Below the pieces are notes generated by a model that had not been told where the DNA came from, searched no databases, and saw nothing but the letters and a program-made list of their open reading frames with translations. A stretch of 25,192 bases of DNA, from assembly GCA_937958695.1 (NCBI GenBank), contig CALGNK010000031.1, forward strand, positions 1-25,192, read 5' to 3'. Positions 2,498 to 20,460 of the stretch are shown here, one piece after another. This DNA is from an uncultured bacterium (lineage in GTDB: Bacteria > DUMJ01). Within the stretch, counting starts at the first letter, position 1; each line of letters opens with the position of its first letter. The translations under genes and the position numbers were made by a program.

Positions 2498-4739
<2,242 letters not shown>

Positions 4740-4756
<17 letters not shown>

Positions 4757-4958
4757 AAAACCCTATGCGGTATGGAAGTATATAGGTTTGGCATTTTCAC
4801 TTGGATTTACCATAGTAGCTTCTGTAGCTGTAGGCTTATATATTGGAGGTTACCTAGATAAGAAACTCTCTACCGGCTATTCATTTAGAGTCCTTTTTAT
4901 GTTCTTAGGAGCCTTTACTGGCTTAAGAAGTATATACAGACAGTATAAAAATGACTAA
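4740..4958 (+). CDS. atpZ: AtpZ-like small membrane protein (AtpZ/AtpI family)
   Basis: A 72-residue protein with two predicted membrane helices (about 11-35 and 43-63) and the family pattern GLYIGGYLDKKL between them, followed by a basic end. Small proteins of this type lie at the head of many F-type ATP synthase operons. They are thought to help assemble the c-ring or to supply divalent cations; the role is known only for a few members. I chose ATG 4740, which overlaps the end of wecB by 17 bases, because the frame starting at 4719 adds residues that do not look like the family. The gene overlaps atpI by eight bases. Confidence 0.8.
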
Positions 4959-5307
4959 TCCTTTGATTTATATTCTGAAAATCTACTCCTTAATGCTAAT
5001 CCTACCTGGGATTGTAATGTTATTTAGACCCAATAAACACTATGTTTTAGGCCTTTTACTTGGATTCTTTCTTGTTCTATGTGATGTACTCCTCCTATTA
5101 ATAAGCTTTAGACAGCATAAACTAACCTATTTTAGGGCTGTAGTATACATGTTTCTCAGAATCTTGCTTCTAGGGTTAGTTATACTCTCTATGTATATTT
5201 GTGGTATAATTAGTAGGTTAAATATTATCGGTGTAGTTATAGCGTTATTATTATATCCTTTAGCCTTAATTGTAGGAGGAGTTAGAACTTTAAAATGGAA
5301 GAGATAG
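4951..5307 (+). CDS. atpI: ATP synthase protein I-like membrane protein
   Basis: This 118-residue, very hydrophobic protein has four predicted membrane helices (roughly 10-25, 30-52, 62-86, 89-110). Position, size and topology fit the ATP synthase I family, which assists c-ring assembly in some bacteria. Sequence conservation in this family is poor, so the call rests mainly on topology and on its place between atpZ and atpB. No strong ribosome binding site precedes the ATG; the eight-base overlap with atpZ suggests coupled translation. It overlaps atpB by 13 bases. Confidence 0.7.
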   Translation: MTNPLIYILKIYSLMLILPGIVMLFRPNKHYVLGLLLGFFLVLCDVLLLLISFRQHKLTYFRAVVYMFLRILLLGLVILSMYICGIISRLNIIGVVIALLLYPLALIVGGVRTLKWKR

Positions 5308-5951
5308 TACCAAGAGTAGTATTTAGTATATTTGGAATACCGGTGACAGATTCGGTTACTACTACATGGATAGTAATGTTATTTATCCTAATTCTAGGAT
5401 GGATCCTTTCTAAGGGGTTATCTGAACATCCATCTAAAATTCAATCACTACTAGAGAGTATTATAGATTTCTATGAAAATATTGCAGTTCAGATAATGGG
5501 AGAAGAAGGTAAGCAATTTGTTCCCCTAGCGGTATCTATAGGTCTATTCATTCTATTCTCTAACTGGATAGAGATAATACCAGGTTTCAATGCGCCAACT
5601 AGAGATTTAAGTACAACTATAGCACTCGCTATAGTTGCAGTCTCTGCTACATATGTAGCTGGTATAAAAAGAAAGGGCTTAAGATACTTTAAAAAGTATA
5701 TAGAACCTAGCCCGATTTTTCTACCTATAAATATTTTAGAAGAATTAGTAAGGCCAATCTCTCTTAGTTTCCGTCTATTTGGAAACATTCTAGGAGAAGA
5801 GATAGTTATAGCGATATTAGTAATGATAGTTCCTTTGATTTTGCCTATCCCTATGATTCTCTTAGGATTGTTTACTGGGTTAATTCAGGCATTTATCTTT
5901 TCTCTCTTAACCCTTTTATATATAGCTGGTGCTATAAGCGAAGAAGTTTAA
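5295..5951 (+). CDS. atpB: F-type ATP synthase subunit a
   Basis: The 218-residue integral membrane stator subunit forms the ion half-channels next to the c-ring. The essential arginine is R160 in ISLSFRLFGNILGEE, equivalent to R210 of E. coli. The segment IIPGFNAPTRDLSTTIALA near 95-113 matches the conserved helix and loop region, and the C-terminal FTGLIQAFIFSLLTLLYI is typical. Five or so hydrophobic helices are visible. It is shorter than the 271-residue E. coli protein but normal for Bacillota and Thermotoga-like enzymes. A purine-rich AGGAGGAG lies near 5274-5281, somewhat far from the ATG. Confidence 0.95.
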   Translation: MEEIVPRVVFSIFGIPVTDSVTTTWIVMLFILILGWILSKGLSEHPSKIQSLLESIIDFYENIAVQIMGEEGKQFVPLAVSIGLFILFSNWIEIIPGFNAPTRDLSTTIALAIVAVSATYVAGIKRKGLRYFKKYIEPSPIFLPINILEELVRPISLSFRLFGNILGEEIVIAILVMIVPLILPIPMILLGLFTGLIQAFIFSLLTLLYIAGAISEEV

Positions 5952-5971: not shown

Positions 5972-6235
5972 ATGCTAACTAGTAAAGCCTTAGTAATTAT
6001 AGCATCTGTTATATCAGCCGGATTTGGTATGGGTATAGCGGTGCTAGGGGGTGCATTAGGTGAGGGGAATGCGGTTTCTAAAGCTATGGAATCTCTAGGA
6101 AGACAACCAGAAGCTCAGAGTTCTATTATGACAGTACTTCTATTAGGACTTGCCTTTATAGAGTCTTTAGTAATATTTATGCTAGTTGTGGCCCTTGTTC
6201 TAATTTTTGTAAATCCTTTTGTGGGGATGGTCTAA
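5972..6235 (+). CDS. atpE: F-type ATP synthase subunit c, two-carboxylate (probably Na+-binding) type
   Basis: This 87-residue hairpin of two membrane helices forms the rotor ring. The polar loop RQPEA (44-48) is the family signature. The ion-site glutamate is E64 in the second helix, followed by S65. In the first helix the position that is Gln32 in the sodium-coupled Ilyobacter enzyme is E31 here (GALGEGNA). This two-carboxylate pattern, Glu in helix 1 plus Glu-Ser in helix 2, is the one described for the sodium-dependent Fusobacterium nucleatum ring. The residue after ES is L66 rather than the Thr of Ilyobacter, and F69 replaces the conserved Tyr. Sodium coupling is therefore likely but not certain. 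The C-terminal NPFVGMV also matches the sodium-type rings. Confidence 0.96.
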
Positions 6236-6238
6236 AGT

Positions 6239-6730
6239 ATGATAAAGTTTAGTTTTCCCACATTTATCTTTCAGACGATAAACTTTTTAATTACGCTATA
6301 TTTGATATATAGATTTGTCTATAGACCCTTAGCTAACTATATATCTAAGAGGCAAGAGACTATCCATAATGAACTCGAACAGGCTAGACTTGAGAGAGAG
6401 AAGGCAGAGGCTCTAAGAGTAGAATATGAAGAAAAATTAAGAGATGCACAGAAAAAGGCAGAGAGTATTATAGAAGAGGCTAAGCATCAGGCAGAATTAG
6501 AAAGATCTCAGATATTAGATAGGGCAAATAGAGAGGCACAAGCACTTTTGCTGAGAGCTCAGAATGAGCTTCTACTTGAGAGGAGTCATGCTATAGAGAA
6601 ATTTAAGGAAGAGATAGTAGATGTAATACTGAATTTAACAACAAAGCTTATAGTAACTGAGCTGAATAATAGAGATGACCTTAAAGAGAGAATACTAGAG
6701 GAATATATAGAGAGGGTAAGAAGTAACTGA
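6239..6730 (+). CDS. atpF: F-type ATP synthase subunit b
   Basis: A 163-residue peripheral-stalk subunit. One membrane helix (about 5-27) is followed by the family's Arg-Pro-Leu (RPLANYI) and a long charged helix (about 35-125, rich in Glu, Arg, Lys and Ala) that would form a right-handed coiled-coil dimer. Only one b gene is present, so a b2 homodimer is expected. Its last base overlaps the first base of the delta-alpha gene. In ordinary enzymes the C-terminal end of b binds delta on top of F1; here its partner is the delta part of a fused protein. Confidence 0.93.
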
Positions 6731-8771
6731 TGTCGAGAGTAGCTTCTTCTAGTACTATAGAGATTTTAAGTGAAGAATTGCTTAGAATAGCTGTAAGAGA
6801 AGATAAGGAAGATATATATAGGGAAATATTTAGAAGATTTTTAGATGAAATCACCTATAATACTAATTTAAATATCGTTTGGTCAGATAAAGATAGGGAG
6901 ATTAAAAAAAGATTTATCAGGGAGAGCCTCTCTAACTTTCCTAAAAGATTTTTAGATTTTATCATTAAAGTTATAGATCTTCGACTAGAAGAATCTCTTT
7001 ATAACATATACCTTAGATTTATTGAAATTCTAGAGAGTAATCAATATCTAAAGGTAAGAGTTGAGTTGCCTTTTTTGGTTTCTGAAGAAAAGATAGAGAG
7101 CCTTGAGCAGTATATAGCCAACCAGTTGGACAAAAAGGTTATATGTTCTATTCATATAAACGACAACCTTATAAATGGTATCAAGATAGACATAGAAGAA
7201 GAAATAATTGACTTTTCAATAAAATCGCAATTAGATATATTGCAAGAAACCTTAGAAGGTATAGAGATAGGAGATTCTTTCTATGATGTGCTTGCTAAGG
7301 TAAAAGAGAGGATAAATTCTTTCCATGTTAAGCCTCTCAGACTTTCTTTAGGCAAAGTAGAGAGTATAAGGGACTGTGTAGTAAATGCTTCAGGGCTAAA
7401 AAATGTTAAGTATGGAGAATTAGTATTATTTTCTAATAACATCTATGGAATGGTAATGAGTTTGGAGGAGAGTTCTACAGGAATCATCCTCTTAGGACCA
7501 CCAGATAGAATTTCTGTAGGGGATACCATAAGAGCCACGGGAAGGGTCTTAGAAGTTCCTGTGGGAGAAAGCCTTATAGGTAGAGTAATAGACCCTCTTG
7601 GAAGACCGTTAGATGGAGGTCCACCAATCGAAACTGATAAGACTAGAAAGATAGAAGCTCTTGCCCCTACCGTAGTTGAGAGAGAACCAGTAAATACCCC
7701 TTTACAGACAGGGTTAAAGATCATAGATGCACTCTTTCCTATAGGAAGAGGTCAAAGAGAACTAATAATAGGTGATAAACAAACAGGTAAGACAGCTATA
7801 GCTATTGATACTATTCTTAACCAGAAAGAAGAGAATGTTATATGCATATATGTAGCTATAGGGCAGAAGGCAACATCCGTTGCTGAGATAGTGAAGATAC
7901 TAAAAGAGAGAGGTGCTATGAATTACACAATTGTTATATCTGCCTTTGCTAGCGAACCAGCCTCTTTATTATATATAGCTCCTTATGCTGGATGTGCTAT
8001 TGGAGAGGAATTTATGTATCAAGGTAGGGATGTCCTTATAATATATGACGACCTATCTAAGCATGCAAAGGCTTACAGAGAGATATCTTTACTATTGAGG
8101 CGTCCTCCAGGTAGAGAAGCTTATCCTGGAGATATCTTTTACCTTCATTCAAGACTATTAGAGCGTTCAGCCAAATTGAATATTTACCTTGGAGGAGGGT
8201 CTCTTACTGCTTTACCAATAGTGGAGACACAGCAAGGGGATATCTCTGCATATATTCCAACCAATCTCATTTCTATAACTGATGGACAGATATATTTGGA
8301 TGCGTCTCTCTTTCATGAAGGAGTAAGACCTGCAGTAGATGTGGGATTATCTGTATCTAGAGTTGGAGGAAATGCTCAGATTAAAGCTATGAGACAGGTA
8401 GCTGGAAGGTTAAGGCTAGACCTTGCCCAATTTCGTGAAGTAGAAACTTTTGCACAGATATCTACAGATATAGACCATACTACTAGAAGTTTGTTAGAAA
8501 GAGGTAGTAGAATAAGAGAGATACTTAAACAACCTCAATATAGCCCTATGAATGTAATAGACCAAGTTATTATATTATTTACTGTAACTAGGGGATACAT
8601 AGACGAGATAGCTCTTGATGAGGTGGCTCATTTTCAGGACGAATTGTTAAAATATATAGATAAGAATTATAGCTATTTAAAAGATAAAATAAAGATAGAA
8701 GGAATGACAGATGAAAATACTAAGGAGCTTACAAGGGCTATATTTGAGTTTAAAAGGACATTTAGTAGCGA

Positions 8772-8775
<4 letters not shown>
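6730..8775 (+). CDS. Fused F-type ATP synthase delta and alpha subunits
   Basis: This single 681-residue frame joins two normally separate subunits. Residues 1-about 178 have the size and layout of delta (OSCP): a helical N-terminal domain to about 105 and a C-terminal part containing [20 protein letters not shown], similar to the conserved end of delta. Residues about 183-681 are alpha. They include the N-terminal helix ([14 protein letters not shown], matching the start of E. coli alpha), the beta-barrel, the P-loop GDKQTGKT (348-355), [13 protein letters not shown] (438-450), [12 protein letters not shown], and the arginine finger R544 in SVSRVGG. Only about four residues at the alpha N-terminus are missing compared with E. 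coli. F1 uses three alpha per delta, so the fusion conflicts with the usual stoichiometry unless alpha is also made separately or the fusion is cleaved. No separate atpH or atpA is in the locus. It overlaps atpG by four bases. Confidence 0.93.
7269..7290 (+). promoter_or_regulatory. Possible relic or active internal translation start at the delta-alpha junction
   Basis: AGGAGAT (7269-7275) lies exactly where an atpA ribosome binding site would be expected, between the delta and alpha coding parts. The first in-frame start codon after it is GTG at 7288 (V187), 12 bases beyond the motif, which is longer than optimal. ATG at 7283 and 7286 are better spaced but out of frame and reach TAA at 7301. 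Use of the GTG would give a free alpha lacking only a few N-terminal residues. This is a suggestion from spacing and position only. Confidence 0.25.
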
Positions 8776-11436
<2,661 letters not shown>

Positions 11437-12738: not shown

Positions 12739-14646
12739 TTGCTTAGAAGAATAGTATTAGTAGCGATTTTGTTTGTATTTTTTACTTCTACTTTTGTTAT
12801 TTATGCTATATCTGGTGAAAAGATAAAGATTTCAGGGGTTGAGGTACAGGGAAATTATAACATTTCTAAAGAAAAGATAATAAAAGCCCTAGAACTACCA
12901 GAAGAGGTAGATGAAGATGCAATAAGATCAGCTTTACAGAGGGTTTTAAATATGGGTTATTTCTCTAATATTAATGCAGGTATAAGATTAGAGCAGAATA
13001 GGTATATACTAGTAATAGAAGTAAGAGAGGCACCTATATTTAAAGGGGTTAAGGTAACAGGAAATAAGGAAGTGACTACTGAAGAAATAGTAAGTATGAT
13101 CTCACTGAAGGTTGGGAGTGTTATAAATCTTATCACCTTGAATCAAGATTTGGGTAAGGTTGCAGATCTATATAAGAATAAAGGATATGTTGGAGCTAAT
13201 TTCCAAGTAAACATAGCAGAGGATGGATGGGTGATTATAAATATAAGTGAAGGTCCGACTATCTCTGGCTTCAACTTTAAAGGGAATACAGTATTAACTT
13301 CTAAAGTTATAGAGGAGGCTCTAGAGACCTATAAAGGAAGGATTCTTTCTCTCAATCTCTTAAGAGATATGGCTCTTAAGATCCAAGAATTGTATAATAA
13401 GAACGGTTATCCTGCCTGTGTTATTCTTAACGCATATAGTGAGGAAGAGGGTATAGTAACATTTGAGATAGGGGAGGGTAGGATCTCAAAGATAATTATC
13501 GAAGGTAACCAAAAAACCAAAGATTATGTAATCCTTAGAGAGATGGAAACTAAAGCGGGAGATATCCTTAATAGAGATAAGATACAAAAAGACCTACAAA
13601 GGATATTTAATCTCGGCTACTTTTCAGATGTAAATGCAGATATCAAATCTGCGGAAACCCCTGGAGAAATAGTCCTTACAATCAAAGTTTTAGAACAGCT
13701 CACTGGACAGGCTGGTGGAGGCTTAGCTTATAGTACCAGGGATGGCATCTCTTTAGTATTAGGTATTAAAGATTCTAACTTGCTTGGAACTGGTAGAAAT
13801 TTAGGTTTATATCTAAACATAGGGCTAACTGCACATGATATTACTATAAATTATACAGAGCCTTATATCTTTGGAACAAAAGGAACTTTAAATACTTCTC
13901 TAATATGGAGGCAAGCAGACACTGTAGATATTATAGAGAATACAAAGGTTAGTTACCATGAAGATAGGAAGACGCTCGAATTAGTTATAGATAAACCAAT
14001 AAATAATGAACTAAAAGGCTCATTAGGCTTTTCTTACAATGATATATACTATCAGGCTAAAGATGAAGGAACGACTTTGCCAGATATAATAAAATCTGGA
14101 GTCTCTAGTGCTATAGTGTTAGGAATAGCAAAAGATACTAGAGATTTAGTGCTAAATCCAACAAAAGGAGATTACTATGGTTTAAGTCTAAAGCAAGGAG
14201 GAGGTATACTTGGTGGAGATTTCAATTTTACCAAACTTACTCTTGACTTAAGGTGGTACTTATCAACCTCTGATAAGGATATGTTTGCAGTAAACTATCT
14301 CTTTGGCTTAGGTCTTGGCGAATTACCGTATATAGAAAAGTTTAGTGTAGGAGGTGTAAATTCTGTAAGAGGTTTGCCAGAAAATTGGAAGAAGTCTGAT
14401 TATGTAGAACTATTGAGTCTTGAATATAGGAATAAAATACAGGATAATGTATTTGGTGTAATCTTTTTAGACTTTGGGAATGGATGGAAGAATGGAGAGA
14501 CAATAAATCCTTTAGATTTATACACTGGGATAGGCCTTGGATTAAGAATAATGATTCCTCCAATGGGTTTATTGAGGTTAGACTATGGCTGGGGTAGTTA
14601 TGATTGGCAGGGAAGGTTTTACTTTAGTGTAGGACAAAAATTCTAG
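12739..14646 (+). CDS. bamA: Outer-membrane protein assembly factor BamA (Omp85 family)
   Basis: A 635-residue outer-membrane protein that inserts beta-barrel proteins. A signal sequence (about 1-23) is followed by what I read as four POTRA repeats: about 28-99, 100-173, 174-248 and 249-322. Each has the GNxxxxxxxI pattern (for example VQGNYNISKEKII, VTGNKEVTTEEIV, IEGNQKTKDYVI). E. coli BamA has five. From about 325 the sequence alternates as beta strands of a barrel, and GGVNSVRGLPENW near 543 carries the conserved VRG lid-lock motif of Omp85. The protein ends in a strand with terminal Phe (FYFSVGQKF), the usual outer-membrane signature. It uses a TTG start. It is followed by skp and lpxD, a common arrangement. 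Confidence 0.95.
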   Translation: MLRRIVLVAILFVFFTSTFVIYAISGEKIKISGVEVQGNYNISKEKIIKALELPEEVDEDAIRSALQRVLNMGYFSNINAGIRLEQNRYILVIEVREAPIFKGVKVTGNKEVTTEEIVSMISLKVGSVINLITLNQDLGKVADLYKNKGYVGANFQVNIAEDGWVIINISEGPTISGFNFKGNTVLTSKVIEEALETYKGRILSLNLLRDMALKIQELYNKNGYPACVILNAYSEEEGIVTFEIGEGRISKIIIEGNQKTKDYVILREMETKAGDILNRDKIQKDLQRIFNLGYFSDVNADIKSAETPGEIVLTIKVLEQLTGQAGGGLAYSTRDGISLVLGIKDSNLLGTGRNLGLYLNIGLTAHDITINYTEPYIFGTKGTLNTSLIWRQADTVDIIENTKVSYHEDRKTLELVIDKPINNELKGSLGFSYNDIYYQAKDEGTTLPDIIKSGVSSAIVLGIAKDTRDLVLNPTKGDYYGLSLKQGGGILGGDFNFTKLTLDLRWYLSTSDKDMFAVNYLFGLGLGELPYIEKFSVGGVNSVRGLPENWKKSDYVELLSLEYRNKIQDNVFGVIFLDFGNGWKNGETINPLDLYTGIGLGLRIMIPPMGLLRLDYGWGSYDWQGRFYFSVGQKF

Positions 14647-14668
14647 GTGATAAGGAGTTGATACATAG

Positions 14669-15133
14669 ATGAATAAAGGATTGATAGTGTTAGCATTGAT
14701 CGTAGGCATAATTGGAATCACCCTTTGGGGATTGAGTATCCCAAGATATGGCTTTGCCTTAGATACTCTTAAGATTGGTTATATAGACATGAATAGAGTT
14801 TTAGAAAGTCATCCTAGGTTTGATAAGGCAAAGAAAGACATAAATGATTTTGCTATAAAGGCTAAGGCTGATTATCAAAAGCAGTTAGATGAGGCAGTAA
14901 AGAACAAGACAGCTACTGAAGCTCAACAGCTAAAGGTAGAATATGAAGCCAAGTTAAATCAAGCTGTGGCTCAGAAACAGCAGGAGATATTAAAGCCTAT
15001 ACTTGATGATATAAAGTCAGTAGTTAGGGATGTGGCTAAGAAGAAGGGCATAGATATAGTGTTAAGAGGGGAAATAGTAGTAGTTGGTGGTGTAGACCTT
15101 ACTGAAGATGCCATAAAGGCTATAAAGAAATGA
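14669..15133 (+). CDS. skp: OmpH/Skp-family periplasmic chaperone
   Basis: This 154-residue protein begins with a hydrophobic export signal (about 4-30, ending near GFA-LD), then IGYIDMNRVLESHPRFDKAKK, a typical OmpH opening. A long charged helix follows (about 55-110; Lys, Gln, Ala, Glu), which would form the tentacle of the jellyfish-shaped trimer. The end folds back as DIVLRGEIVVVGGVDLTEDAIKAI. The family holds unfolded outer-membrane proteins on the way to BamA. AAGGAG precedes the ATG at a workable distance. Its stop overlaps the start of lpxD by four bases. Confidence 0.88.
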   Translation: MNKGLIVLALIVGIIGITLWGLSIPRYGFALDTLKIGYIDMNRVLESHPRFDKAKKDINDFAIKAKADYQKQLDEAVKNKTATEAQQLKVEYEAKLNQAVAQKQQEILKPILDDIKSVVRDVAKKKGIDIVLRGEIVVVGGVDLTEDAIKAIKK

Positions 15134-16140
15134 AATATACCCTAGAAGAGATAGCTCAGCTTATAAAAGGAAGATTATCCGGACCATCCCAATTGATGAT
15201 AACTGGGATAAACTCGCCAGAGTTAGCCAAAGAGACAGATATATGTATTATCTACGACGAAAGGTTTATAGATCTAGTAAAAGATCGTAATGTAGGAGCA
15301 GTTGTTATTAGGGAAGGATTATCAATTGATAAGCCTCATATAGTAGTATCAGATCCTAGAGCTATTATGCCAATCCTTCTAAATCTGTTTGTCAAGAAAA
15401 AGGAGCTTCGAGGGATAGATAAAACAGCTATTGTTGGGAATAACTGCAATATACCGGAAACTTGTTTTATAGGACCATACGTAGTTATAGGAGACAATGT
15501 AAAACTGGGCGAAAGAGTTATTATTATGGCTGGAAGTAAGATAGGAGACGAAGTTATAATTGGGGATGACTCGTTTATAGGATATAATGTAGTAGTAGAG
15601 GAAAGAACAGTTATAGGTAAAAGGGTCAAAATACAACATGGTGCAGTTATAGGTAAAGAAGGGTTTGGCTTTTATAAGAGCGAAGAGGGTTATATAAGGA
15701 TTCCTCACTTGGGTAATGTAATAATAGAGGATGATGTAGAAGTCGGTGCTAATAGTGTAGTAGACAGAGCAACTCTTGGTTCTACAGTTATTAAAAGAGG
15801 AACAAAGATCGATAGTTTGGTATTGATTGCTCACAATGTAGATATAGGTGAAGATACTGCTATAGCTGGACAGACCGGTATAGCAGGGAGTTCCGAGATA
15901 GGTAGTCACTGCATGTTAGGGGGGCAAGTGGGAATAACAGACCATGTTAAGGTTGGTGATAATACTATAATCTTTGCTAAGTCAGGAGTTATAGGTGATA
16001 TACCCTCGAATTCTGTTGTATCTGGTACACCTGCTAGACCTCATAAGGAGTGGCTAAGGGCACAGGCCATCTTACTGAAACTCCCTAAAATAATTAAACA
16101 GTTGGGGATGAAGGATGTGGCAGACGACAATAAAGAATAG
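15130..16140 (+). CDS. lpxD: UDP-3-O-acylglucosamine N-acyltransferase
   Basis: The third lipid A enzyme adds the second acyl chain from acyl-ACP to UDP-3-O-acyl-GlcN. The 336 residues comprise an N-terminal uridine-binding domain (about 1-95), a left-handed beta-helix of hexapeptide repeats (about 98-290) and a helical end (about 305-336). The catalytic histidine is H235 in LIAHNVDIGEDTAIAGQTGIAGSSEIG, the conserved HNVxIG motif. Length is typical. It overlaps skp upstream by four bases and lpxC downstream by 26 bases. Confidence 0.96.
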   Translation: MKYTLEEIAQLIKGRLSGPSQLMITGINSPELAKETDICIIYDERFIDLVKDRNVGAVVIREGLSIDKPHIVVSDPRAIMPILLNLFVKKKELRGIDKTAIVGNNCNIPETCFIGPYVVIGDNVKLGERVIIMAGSKIGDEVIIGDDSFIGYNVVVEERTVIGKRVKIQHGAVIGKEGFGFYKSEEGYIRIPHLGNVIIEDDVEVGANSVVDRATLGSTVIKRGTKIDSLVLIAHNVDIGEDTAIAGQTGIAGSSEIGSHCMLGGQVGITDHVKVGDNTIIFAKSGVIGDIPSNSVVSGTPARPHKEWLRAQAILLKLPKIIKQLGMKDVADDNKE

Positions 16141-16933
16141 TGTAGAAATAACTGGAGTCGGATTACACACAGGAAGGGAAAGTAGAATTATAATTTCTCC
16201 AGCGCCTGCGAATACTGGCATAGTCTTTAATTTTGCCGACAAAAATTCTTTAAAAGTTAAAATAGATGATATGATTATATCTACAAACAGGGGGACTATT
16301 TTAGCACACAACGGATATTTCATATATACAGTGGAACATATACTTTCAGCCCTTAATGGGTTAGAGCTAGACAATGTGGAGATAACATTAGAGGGAGAGG
16401 AGATACCTTCTTGTGATGGAAGTGCTAAGGTTTTTGTAGATAAATTAAAGGATGCAGGGGTAGAAACTTTAGAAGAAGATAGAAGGATTATACAACTTCC
16501 AGAACCTATATGGATATTCAACGGAGATAAAGGGATATTTGCTCTGCCAAGCGATAAGCTTTCTATCTACTATATTATAGAGTTTCCCTGGATAGGAAAA
16601 CAGTGGATATTCTATGAGCATGATCCTGCTAGATATGAACAGGAGATCGCCCCTGCTAGGACATTTGGATTTGAAGAAGAGATAGAGACTTTAGTAACAG
16701 AAGGTCTGGCAAAAGGAGGAAGCTTTTTCAATTCTATAATAGTTGGTAAGAATGGTTATTCATCACCACTTAGATATCCTGATGAATTTGTAAGGCACAA
16801 ACTATTAGACCTTATGGGAGATATCTATTTGCTAGGTAAACGTATCAATGCTACAATATTTGTAGTGAAAGGTGGACATAATCTTCATGTAGAGTTAGTA
16901 AAGAGGATAAAAGAGGTGATCGATGATAGATAG
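16115..16933 (+). CDS. lpxC: UDP-3-O-acyl-N-acetylglucosamine deacetylase
   Basis: The committed zinc-dependent step of lipid A synthesis. The 272 residues hold the two-domain fold. Key residues are E74 and H75 in TVEHILSAL, T183 in PARTFGF, and H228, K229 and D232 in VRHKLLDLMGD, with H255 in GGHNLH. H75, H228 and D232 would bind zinc. The opening TIKNSVEITGVGLHTG is diagnostic. ATG 16115 has GGGGATGAAGG just upstream, inside lpxD. It overlaps fabZ by 11 bases; in some other phyla lpxC and fabZ are fused, but here they are separate. Confidence 0.97.
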   Translation: MWQTTIKNSVEITGVGLHTGRESRIIISPAPANTGIVFNFADKNSLKVKIDDMIISTNRGTILAHNGYFIYTVEHILSALNGLELDNVEITLEGEEIPSCDGSAKVFVDKLKDAGVETLEEDRRIIQLPEPIWIFNGDKGIFALPSDKLSIYYIIEFPWIGKQWIFYEHDPARYEQEIAPARTFGFEEEIETLVTEGLAKGGSFFNSIIVGKNGYSSPLRYPDEFVRHKLLDLMGDIYLLGKRINATIFVVKGGHNLHVELVKRIKEVIDDR

Positions 16934-17414
16934 AGAGGTTTCTACTTTCAATATATATGATTTGTTAAATATACTCCCCCATAGATATCCTTTCCTTCTA
17001 GTAGATAAGATTATAGAGTACGAAAAGGGAAAGAGGGTAAAAGGTGTAAAAAATGTCACCATAAATGAACCTTACTTCCCGGGACATTTTCCGGAAATCC
17101 CAATAACCCCTGGGGTTATTATTATAGAAACTATGGCCCAAATAGCAGGGATTCTTCTATTAGAAGAGGCAAAAGAGAAGGATCAACTAGCCATACTAAG
17201 TGGGGTAGATAAGGTTAGATTCCGTAGGATGGTAAGGCCAGGAGATCAGATAATTATAGAGGCAGAGATACTTCAGAAGAAGATTAATTTTTGTAAAATG
17301 AAGTGCACAGCTTATGTAGAGAATTATGTAGTAGCAGAAGGAGAGCTTTTAATAGCTTTATATAAGGAGGATTCTATCCGTGACATATATACATCCAACA
17401 GCAATAATAGATGA
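16923..17414 (+). CDS. fabZ: 3-hydroxyacyl-ACP dehydratase FabZ
   Basis: This 163-residue hot-dog-fold enzyme dehydrates 3-hydroxyacyl-ACP in fatty acid elongation, drawing on the same hydroxyacyl pool as LpxA and LpxD. The catalytic pair is H55 in YFPGHFP and E69 in GVIIIETMAQ. LLNILPHRYPFLLVDKI near the start is the family's opening. The C-terminal tail beyond about 150 is hydrophilic and is encoded over the start of lpxA (35-base overlap), so it is probably unstructured. It sits between lpxC and lpxA as in many diderms. Confidence 0.96.
   Translation: MIDREVSTFNIYDLLNILPHRYPFLLVDKIIEYEKGKRVKGVKNVTINEPYFPGHFPEIPITPGVIIIETMAQIAGILLLEEAKEKDQLAILSGVDKVRFRRMVRPGDQIIIEAEILQKKINFCKMKCTAYVENYVVAEGELLIALYKEDSIRDIYTSNSNNR
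17364..17370 (+). promoter_or_regulatory. Ribosome binding site deciding the GTG start of lpxA
   Basis: AAGGAGG lies nine bases before GTG 17380, inside the end of fabZ. The N-terminal sequence from this GTG (TYIHPTAIID) is exactly the usual LpxA opening, so the non-ATG start is well supported. Confidence 0.8.
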
Positions 17415-18201
17415 ATCGGTAAAATTAGGAGACGATGTAGAGATTGGACCATACGTAGTTATAAAGCATGATACTGTAATAGGTTCAGGGACAAAGATTG
17501 ATGCTCATTGTATTATAGGTCCGTGGGTTACTATAGGGAATAGATGTGAAATATATGGAGGTTGCTCTATAGGAGCTCCTCCGCAGGATGTAAGGTATAA
17601 AGGGGAACGTAGTTTTGTTATTATAGGAGACAATAATATATTAAGGGAGTTTGTTACCATACATAGGGCGTCAGGTAAAGATAAAGCAACTATCATAGGA
17701 GACAATAATTTTCTTATGGCATACTCTCATATAGCTCATAATTGCAAACTAGGAAATGGAATAACTATGGCTAACTCTTCAAATCTAGCAGGTTATGTAG
17801 AAGTCTATGATAGAGCGGTTATAGGAGGAGTAGTAGGGGTCCATCAGTTTGTAAGAATAGGGAAATTAGCCATGGTAGGGGCTTGTTCTAAAGTTGTCCA
17901 GGATGTTCTTCCCTTTTCCCTTGTGGATGGTCACCCAGCAAAAGCCTATGGAATAAATGTTGTTGGTCTTAGAAGAGCAGGATATTCCCCGGAGATAAGA
18001 AGTATCCTTCAGAAAGCCTTTAAAATTTTCTATTTTTCTCATCCAGGTAGAATGAAATCTATAATAACATTGGAGGAGTTAGAACCCATACCTGAGATAA
18101 AAGAAATGATAGAGTTTATAAAAGATAGCAGAAGAGGGATAGTAAAAGCTGCTAGAGAAGCTCTACAATGGGATGTTCAAACATTCTTAGAAAATATGTA
18201 A
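17380..18201 (+). CDS. lpxA: Acyl-ACP--UDP-N-acetylglucosamine O-acyltransferase
   Basis: The first lipid A enzyme places a 3-hydroxyacyl chain on UDP-GlcNAc. The 273 residues begin with IHPTAIID and continue as a hexapeptide-repeat beta-helix to about 185, with the helical C-terminal domain after GLRRAGYSPE. The catalytic base is H120 in SHIAHNCKLGN (equivalent to H125 of E. coli); H117 matches H122. GAPPQDVRYKGE (66-77) is the conserved loop. It starts with GTG and overlaps lpxB by 34 bases. No lpxI or lpxH gene lies between lpxA and lpxB. Confidence 0.96.
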   Translation: MTYIHPTAIIDESVKLGDDVEIGPYVVIKHDTVIGSGTKIDAHCIIGPWVTIGNRCEIYGGCSIGAPPQDVRYKGERSFVIIGDNNILREFVTIHRASGKDKATIIGDNNFLMAYSHIAHNCKLGNGITMANSSNLAGYVEVYDRAVIGGVVGVHQFVRIGKLAMVGACSKVVQDVLPFSLVDGHPAKAYGINVVGLRRAGYSPEIRSILQKAFKIFYFSHPGRMKSIITLEELEPIPEIKEMIEFIKDSRRGIVKAAREALQWDVQTFLENM

Positions 18202-19340
18202 AGATAGCTATCTTAGCAGGAGAAGTGTCTGGAGATGTTCAGGGTGCTTACTTAGCTGGTGGTTTGCTAAATAACGATTATGGCATAAATGTTTCACTTT
18301 TTGGTATTGGTGGGGAATATATGAGGAACAAGGGAGTTAAGTTATGGGATGAGACATCTAGGTATGGTTCGGTTGGCTTTTGGGAGCCGTTAAAGTTTTT
18401 ACCCAACTGGTTAAAAATCTATAGTAGGGTTAAAGAGAGAATCCTAGAAGAAGACTTAGATGGAGTTATCTTTGTTGATAATCAAGGATTTAATCTACAG
18501 GTAGCCAAGTTTATCAAAAAGAAAAGAACTAATTTATCTATGTTTTATTATTTTTCTCCTCAGGCATGGCTTTGGGGAAGCAGTATAGCCAAACAAGTAA
18601 AAAACCTCAATATTAAGATCTTAGCAGTCTTTCCCAAAGAAGCAGAAATATATAGAGATAGTGGGGCAGAAGTTTACTTTGTTGGACATCCTCTTTTAGA
18701 TATAGTAGAAGCTAAAGTGCCTCCAGAGAAGATAAGAGAGTCCTTAGGGATTAAAGATGAGTTGCCATTGATAGGGATATTCCCAGGTAGTAGAGAACAA
18801 GAGGTGAGATCACTATTACCGGTCATGTTAGAGGGTATATCCCCTTTAATAAACAGAGAAGCTTACTTCTATATAGCTAGTGCATCTGAGTTTACCTATA
18901 AATTAATTGTAGATATCTTAGAGAAGAGTAATCTATATCTACCCATTATTTCCCTAAATAGATACGATTATATGAATGCGTCTAAACTATTAATTATGTC
19001 ATCTGGAACGGCAGTTTTGGAAGCTGCCTTAATAGGTATACCTGTAATAGCTCTATATAAGTTATCCTGGCTTTCTTGGAATATTGCCAAGAGAATAGTT
19101 CGTTATCCATATGCTACTATGCCAAATATTCTACTTGAGAAACCTGTTGTAGTAGAATTATTACAAAAAGATGCTAACCCAACAAGGCTTAGGAATACGA
19201 TAAGAGAATTATTATATAATGACAAGAAGTTAGAAATTATAAGGAATGATTTAGGAAAGATAAGAGAGATTCTGGGTGAAAAGGGGGCTATAAAGAGGGC
19301 CGTAGAGTGTATCTTCAGGGGGTTAAACTGTATTGAGTAA
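18168..19340 (+). CDS. lpxB: Lipid-A-disaccharide synthase
   Basis: This GT-B glycosyltransferase (family GT19) joins UDP-2,3-diacyl-GlcN and lipid X at the inner face of the cytoplasmic membrane. Motifs in order are AGEVSGD near residue 18, FVDNQGFN (its Asp matches the essential D98 of E. coli), FSPQAWLW, FVGHPLLD, FPGSREQEV (its Arg matches R201), SSGTAVLEAALIGIP and YATMPNILLEKPVVVELLQ. The common IDAPDFN box is altered to VDNQGFN, a mild deviation. ATG 18168 is the only standard start near the first strand. It overlaps the next gene, its paralogue, by eight bases. Confidence 0.94.
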   Translation: MGCSNILRKYVKIAILAGEVSGDVQGAYLAGGLLNNDYGINVSLFGIGGEYMRNKGVKLWDETSRYGSVGFWEPLKFLPNWLKIYSRVKERILEEDLDGVIFVDNQGFNLQVAKFIKKKRTNLSMFYYFSPQAWLWGSSIAKQVKNLNIKILAVFPKEAEIYRDSGAEVYFVGHPLLDIVEAKVPPEKIRESLGIKDELPLIGIFPGSREQEVRSLLPVMLEGISPLINREAYFYIASASEFTYKLIVDILEKSNLYLPIISLNRYDYMNASKLLIMSSGTAVLEAALIGIPVIALYKLSWLSWNIAKRIVRYPYATMPNILLEKPVVVELLQKDANPTRLRNTIRELLYNDKKLEIIRNDLGKIREILGEKGAIKRAVECIFRGLNCIE

Positions 19341-20460
19341 ATTAATTATGCTTACTAACAGCCCCGGAGAGATTAGCGGATGGTTTCTTCCGTTAGCTAG
19401 AATTATAAAGGAAACCTATCCTAAATTGGAAATAATAGCGGTTCTATTACCCTGTCAATATGCCAGCGGAACTGAGGTTAAAGTTTTATCCGAATCTAGT
19501 ATATTCTCTAAGGTGGTGGACAGAAAGGATTTATTGAAATTTTTATTATCTCCCAAGATAAGAGATGAGAAAATCCTCATATTACAACTTGGAGGAGATC
19601 CTTATTGGGGAACCCTATTTAAGAAAAGATTAAAGGGCAAACTGTTTATATACTCTGATAGTCTAGTCCATACAAATAAATGGGCAGATATGGTCCTTTT
19701 GGCAGATTCAAGATTCTCTAAAGGAAAAGAGAATGAGGTGGTCGTAGGCAATTTGATATTAGATAGTATAGACATAAATATTCCCATTAATGGTTCTAGC
19801 ATAGCTTTTTTGCCAGGCAGTAGACCTTATGGACTTAAACTAGTGTTTCCTTTGATGCTTGAGACTGCTGAAAACCTAAAGAGAACTATAAATAATTCTA
19901 TAAAATTTATCATCTCACCATTTATACCTTTGGAAACTTTAGATAAATATATTCCAAGTAATTTTAGGATAGAGCAGAACAAAATAGTTTCTAGTTCGGG
20001 AAACATATATTCTATAGAGTATGGTACAACTTGGGAATGGGCAAAAGATGTAAAACTAGCCATAAATATTCCTGGCACTAATACCTTGCAGTTAGCCATC
20101 TTAGGTATACCTCAGATAACAATACTGCCTCTACAATGGGCTGAATATATACCGTTAGAAGGTATTTTAGAGTGGATAAGCAGATTACCATTGGTTGGCA
20201 AAGGAATAAAAAGAACAATTATTTATAGACTTATTCATAAAATTAAATTTATAGCTCTTCCTAACATAATATCAAAAAGGAAAATTACAGAAGAATTCAT
20301 AGGTATAATAACCCCGGAAAATTTGAGAGATAAAATAGTAGAACTTTTAAACGATGAAAAATTGTTAGATAATATGAAAGAGGGGTTAAAGAGTATAAGT
20401 TTTTTAGGAGGAGCAGGAAGAAATATAGCAAAACTTGTTGGGGATTCACTCTGTGAATAA
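19333..20460 (+). CDS. LpxB-like glycosyltransferase paralogue (lipid-A-disaccharide synthase-related)
   Basis: The 375-residue protein follows the LpxB plan but is clearly divergent. TNSPGEISGWFLP replaces AGEVSGD, LQLGGDPYWG keeps the aspartate at the D98 position, FLPGSRPYGLKL keeps the arginine of PGSR, and PGTNTLQLAILGIP and ALPNIISKRKITEEFIG match the donor-site region of LpxB. It belongs with the LpxB-related proteins found next to lpx genes in Synergistota-like and cyanobacterial genomes; the function there is not established. It could glycosylate another lipid or act in lipid A modification. It starts with TTG, has an AGGGGG site about ten bases upstream, and overlaps lpxB; ATG 19348 is an alternative. 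Being directly behind lpxB, it probably arose by tandem duplication or was kept as a unit. Confidence 0.75.
   Translation: MSKLIMLTNSPGEISGWFLPLARIIKETYPKLEIIAVLLPCQYASGTEVKVLSESSIFSKVVDRKDLLKFLLSPKIRDEKILILQLGGDPYWGTLFKKRLKGKLFIYSDSLVHTNKWADMVLLADSRFSKGKENEVVVGNLILDSIDINIPINGSSIAFLPGSRPYGLKLVFPLMLETAENLKRTINNSIKFIISPFIPLETLDKYIPSNFRIEQNKIVSSSGNIYSIEYGTTWEWAKDVKLAINIPGTNTLQLAILGIPQITILPLQWAEYIPLEGILEWISRLPLVGKGIKRTIIYRLIHKIKFIALPNIISKRKITEEFIGIITPENLRDKIVELLNDEKLLDNMKEGLKSISFLGGAGRNIAKLVGDSLCE

Follow-up and report, generated by a model that had tools for sequence, protein, structure and literature searches.

Fusion of a full-length delta to alpha in the otherwise standard F-type ATP synthase of a deep-branching bacterial genus, with no separate gene for either subunit

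In ordinary bacterial F-type ATP synthases, such as those of E. coli and Bacillus PS3, delta and alpha are separate subunits present in a delta:alpha ratio of 1:3. The DNA analyzed here, a 25,192-nucleotide contig from an uncultured bacterium (CALGNK010000031.1 of assembly GCA_937958695.1, referred to as the window), raises the question of how such an enzyme is built when the two subunits are fused. The original prediction, made from the letters of the window, held that a full-size delta and a nearly complete alpha with intact catalytic residues are encoded in one frame and that this conflicts with the known stoichiometry.

By reading the open reading frames of the window, we found that positions 6730-8775 of the forward strand (the strand of all atp features described below) form a single uninterrupted ORF of 681 aa, in which an intact delta (OSCP) sequence is followed by an intact F1-alpha. 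The delta part is matched by Pfam PF00213 (OSCP) at aa 17-175 (profile positions 9-172, 48 bits against a cut-off of 22.3), and the alpha part contains the ATP-synt_ab_N (PF02874, aa 217-271), ATP-synt_ab (PF00006, aa 328-543), and ATP-synt_ab_C (PF00306, aa 550-673) domains. The atpA model TIGR00962 is matched over its full length at aa 186-679, with a score of 732 bits versus a cut-off of 484. From its N terminus, the protein consists of a delta N-terminal domain (NTD; aa 7-105, 6748-7044), a delta C-terminal, b-binding domain (CTD; aa 106-176, 7045-7257), the linker GIEIGDS (aa 177-183, 7258-7278), an alpha N-terminal helix placed by TIGR00962 and an AlphaFold2 model (aa 184-197, 7279-7320), and an alpha core of beta-barrel, nucleotide-binding, and C-terminal domains (aa 198-681, 7321-8772). 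The P-loop GDKQTGKT (aa 348-355, 7771-7794) and, as also seen by alignment, the arginine finger R544 (8359-8361) are intact. The reading of the frame and of its catalytic residues in the original prediction was therefore correct.

The fused gene lies in an atp operon of standard F-type order. Upstream of it are genes for an AtpZ/ATPase gene 1-like protein (4719-4958; PF09527, 54 bits), a 118-aa membrane-type ORF without a family match that occupies the usual atpI position (4951-5307; assigned from position and sequence), subunit a (5295-5951; PF00119, 175 bits), subunit c (5972-6235; PF00137), and subunit b, which is a separate 163-aa ORF (6239-6730; PF00430, 92 bits). Downstream are gamma (8772-9644; PF00231, 193 bits), beta (9641-11035; TIGR01039, 733 bits), and epsilon (11032-11436; PF02823 and TIGR01216). 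The b stop codon and the start ATG of the fused gene share one base (TGATG), and the stop codon of the fusion overlaps the gamma ATG (ATGA). The order a-c-b-delta-alpha-gamma-beta-epsilon, the domains, and the catalytic residues are the same as in the E. coli and Bacillus PS3 enzymes, from which the window enzyme differs in the fusion of delta to alpha. The N-ATPase (alternate F1F0) lacks delta, whereas the window enzyme has one, and the window alpha scores 647 bits with TIGR03324, below the cut-off of 750.5. Subunit c has a Glu in both its first (GEG) and its second (ES) helix, and these two carboxylates presumably resemble those of a two-carboxylate Na+-type rotor. Elsewhere in the window (12739-20460), ORF reading gave candidate BamA-like and OmpH/Skp-like genes and candidates resembling lpxD, lpxC, fabZ, lpxA, and lpxB, which suggest that an outer membrane containing lipid A is present.

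The assembly is a draft of 57 contigs, and a sequencing or assembly error could in principle have joined atpH to atpA. Two further species of this deep-branching genus, with proteins 89% and 88% identical to that of the window, also have this frame with no interrupting stop codon, and the linker GIEIGDS does not vary among the three species. Comparison of the three congeners gave a dN/dS of 0.04-0.19 for the two delta domains, both of which are under purifying selection, and of 0.03-0.05 for alpha. Because separate genomes of three species share the frame and the linker and show purifying selection, a join error is refuted for practical purposes, and chance is likewise excluded.

The original prediction had also proposed a search of related genomes for the same fusion, which both congeners proved to contain, and a search for separate atpA or atpH genes. 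With PF00213 and TIGR00962, no second F1-alpha or delta was found in any of the three congener genomes (completeness, 97-99%). Judged by length, place, and similarity, the remaining ATP-synt_ab proteins of the window genome are the beta subunit, both the A and the B subunit of a V/A-type ATPase, and two proteins that are FliI-like (449 aa) and rho-like (464 aa). From these results, we conclude that the fusion is the sole alpha and the sole delta of an otherwise standard F-type ATP synthase and that it is fixed in the genus.

The original prediction knew of no described delta-alpha fusion, and on this point it was mistaken: Ueno et al. 2025 (PMC12229609) built such a fusion, solved its structure (PDB 9jc1), and named natural ones. 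In that study, the delta NTD was deleted in Bacillus PS3 and the remainder was fused to alpha, and the engineered enzyme had up to three stalks and an H+/ATP ratio of 5.8; the authors concluded that the delta NTD holds the enzyme to a single stalk and predicted that ATP synthases with several stalks exist in nature (PMC12229609). The natural fusions named there, those of Acidaminococcus fermentans and of UniProt G4Q3K6 and A0A1I2C5T3, are reported to be without the delta NTD (PMC12229609). The earlier known delta fusion, that of Mycobacterium and Gordonia (PMC5709465), joins delta to b, a further stator subunit, where copy numbers can match, whereas the window protein joins delta to alpha.

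By sequence search, 9jc1 was the sole solved chain found to contain both delta and alpha. Like the window protein, this engineered PS3 chain runs from the delta C terminus through a short linker to the alpha N terminus and works with ordinary F-type partners and no free alpha or delta; it lacks delta residues 2-104, whereas the window protein keeps the complete delta NTD. No description of a delta-alpha fusion that keeps the whole delta was found in the literature searched. The window fusion is thus of the delta-alpha kind already known, but with a full-length delta not described before in that literature. It differs from the truncated class because it keeps the delta NTD, the domain credited with restricting the enzyme to a single stalk. 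Among solved structures, the 157-aa delta of the Chloroflexus aurantiacus ATP synthase (PDB 9itj and related) matches profile positions 65-177 only and is represented by 12 chains in 6 entries, or two per entry on average; this is possibly a natural two-stalk enzyme without a fusion.

A survey of 386 genomes, from ∼259 sampled families, placed delta and alpha in one frame only in the window genus among the best matches listed; the sampled relatives outside the genus share only the domain Bacteria with it. In the Bacillota-type group of G399, a fusion of the delta CTD to alpha without an intervening stop was present in 15 of 398 genomes, including a Bacillota MAG (L041), and a sixteenth, in G391, is split over contig ends. 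Frames were read for all but one of these 16 truncated fusions, that of G388, which is identical to G386 by search. The loci (G386/L041, G387/L162, G399/L158, L159, L160, L163, and L186-L194) encode proteins of 578-629 aa where the ORF length was read, and the one in G387 sits on a 2.88-Mb contig.

Like the window fusion, the truncated ones are in-frame delta-alpha genes in a standard atp operon and are often the only delta of their genome. They lack the delta NTD, whereas in the 681-aa window protein this domain is present and predicted to fold. Of the 16 genomes, 9 have no delta other than the truncated fusion; the remaining 7 encode a separate full-length delta as well. Of these 7, G446 has two F-type operons, one with the truncated fusion (L160) and one with separate full-length delta and alpha (L161), and the others are G485, G752, G574, G549, G447, and G645. 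G429 (L159:2842-4575) has an alpha extended at its N terminus, where the delta CTD would lie, by a highly diverged sequence (Pfam OSCP E value 0.12), and no ordinary delta was found in this genome. These data show that truncated delta-alpha fusions are recurrent. A quick tree groups them with the full-length fusions (83%), whereas a careful tree does not, and the AU test rejects neither a single clade (p = 0.37) nor a placement of the truncated ones apart (p = 0.19).

Two candidates suggested by frame length were rejected, since the alpha of G043 is an ordinary 507-aa frame and the G288 frame extends upstream without recognizable delta sequence. For G239, where a 620-aa frame was suspected to be a fusion, a motif scan of one stretch showed no alpha frame.

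The delta part of the window protein was modeled with confidence by AlphaFold2 as six N-terminal helices (aa 7-103) and an alpha/beta C-terminal domain (aa 107-176), and the pLDDT of the NTD is mostly over 90. The predicted NTD matches that of E. coli delta (1abv) with a Z score of 12.7 and an rmsd of 2.8 over 103 residues, and the C-terminal part of the predicted delta matches the engineered fusion chain 9jc1_K. Of the columns conserved in an alignment with 15 ordinary deltas, 8 of 24 in the NTD and 14 of 28 in the CTD are retained by the window genus. The RYAxA motif of helix 1, which is nearly universal in ordinary deltas, and the invariant Arg86 are replaced in all three congeners. The six-helix NTD fold is predicted to be kept, the loss of RYAxA and Arg86 leaving fold membership unaffected. 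RYAxA has a role in alpha binding, and the docking of the delta NTD to alpha has probably changed; the loss of conserved NTD residues may also reflect only co-evolution with a diverged alpha N-terminal helix.

Unless the polypeptide is cleaved, delta and alpha would be made in equal numbers, giving three deltas per F1. The conflict with a 3:1 ratio of alpha to delta seen in the original prediction is supported, with one frame and no separate copies. The original prediction had allowed for extra free alpha, of which a supply from another gene is now ruled out. An internal start within the fused gene would also yield free alpha, so that each F1 would contain one fusion and two free alphas, and the window does have an in-frame GTG at codon 187 (V187), but this codon is GTA or ATA in the other two congeners. 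There is no in-frame ATG at codons 2-240 in any of the three congeners, and no in-frame ATG, GTG, or TTG preceded by a Shine-Dalgarno-like site at codons 2-250, which makes a separate alpha by internal initiation unlikely. The junction is also unremarkable in synonymous conservation across the three congeners, with no excess of the kind expected from a hidden signal. An out-of-frame ATG with an upstream AGGAG is present at the junction in all three species; it follows from the conserved amino acids and opens only a short out-of-frame ORF. Taken together, we regard an internal start as very improbable.

Canonical stoichiometry would also be restored if the polypeptide were cleaved after translation at or near the linker, releasing separate alpha and delta, with the surplus delta degraded. 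The linker, ∼7 residues that separate the helix of the delta CTD from that at the alpha N terminus, is modeled with lower confidence than its surroundings, and this and its identity in three species would suit a cleavage site. However, identity over 12 junction residues is not above that of neighboring alpha, no protease or known cleavage motif was identified, and cleavage would have to be postulated for the truncated fusions of other genomes as well. We consider cleavage unlikely and infer that the fusion protein is used uncut, with three delta domains per alpha3beta3 crown.

Our tentative proposal is that three fused subunits per F1 are accompanied by probably more than one peripheral stalk and a-subunit, with a raised number of ions per ATP. 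Three uncut fused subunits would enter each alpha3beta3 crown, where each delta CTD would adjoin its own alpha N-terminal helix and could bind a b2 dimer in the manner of the engineered, N-truncated enzyme. A consequence of the fusion absent from the original prediction is that a docking site for a stalk could be present on every alpha. In known geometry the single central concavity has room for one NTD, so three could not all fill it, and the altered NTD motif suggests that they would dock differently or flexibly, which makes us favor a capacity for more than one stalk. If more than one stalk and a-subunit are present, more ions would be used per ATP, and ATP could be made at low ion-motive force. 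The linker plan, similar to that of the engineered 9jc1, is evidence for this proposal. An F-ATPase evidently tolerates one delta CTD per alpha, since 9 of the 16 genomes examined have retained one whose sole delta is a truncated fusion.

Against more than one stalk, the NTD held to restrict the enzyme to a single stalk is kept and selected here. The fusion could be used uncut with one stalk, one delta unit capping the crown and binding b2 while the other two are idle. This would account for a six-helix fold maintained under purifying selection and would agree with PS3, where the NTD occupies the concavity at the center and keeps the number of stalks at one (PMC12229609). Subunit b is the sole PF00430 protein above the family cut-off in the window genome, and a single ordinary b gene fits one stalk, although it is compatible with any stalk number. 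However, the CTDs of both idle units would remain open to b2, and the NTD no longer has the conserved motif that one would expect if it capped the crown in the canonical way. We regard a single stalk with two idle delta units as a serious rival, though one that we judge somewhat unlikely.

The window genome also contains a complete A/V-type ATPase operon in reverse order (G000:C30:3000-22000, L121, 7759-16128), with genes for a 104-aa coiled-coil protein, I, K, E, C, F, A, B, and D as assigned by ORF reading and PF00006. Genes for the A/V-type A and B subunits are present in genomes G001 and G002 as well. The organism thus has two rotary ATPases, and the F-type enzyme could therefore be specialized for ATP synthesis at low ion-motive force.

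The window genus separates two parts of the rule of Ueno et al., in that delta is fused to alpha while the delta NTD is kept. If the enzyme does have more than one stalk, it would account for ATP synthesis when the ion-motive force is very low, and ATP yields would have to be re-estimated for the organisms that carry it. Two gear ratios may coexist in one cell where the genome encodes a truncated fusion and a separate full-length delta as well.
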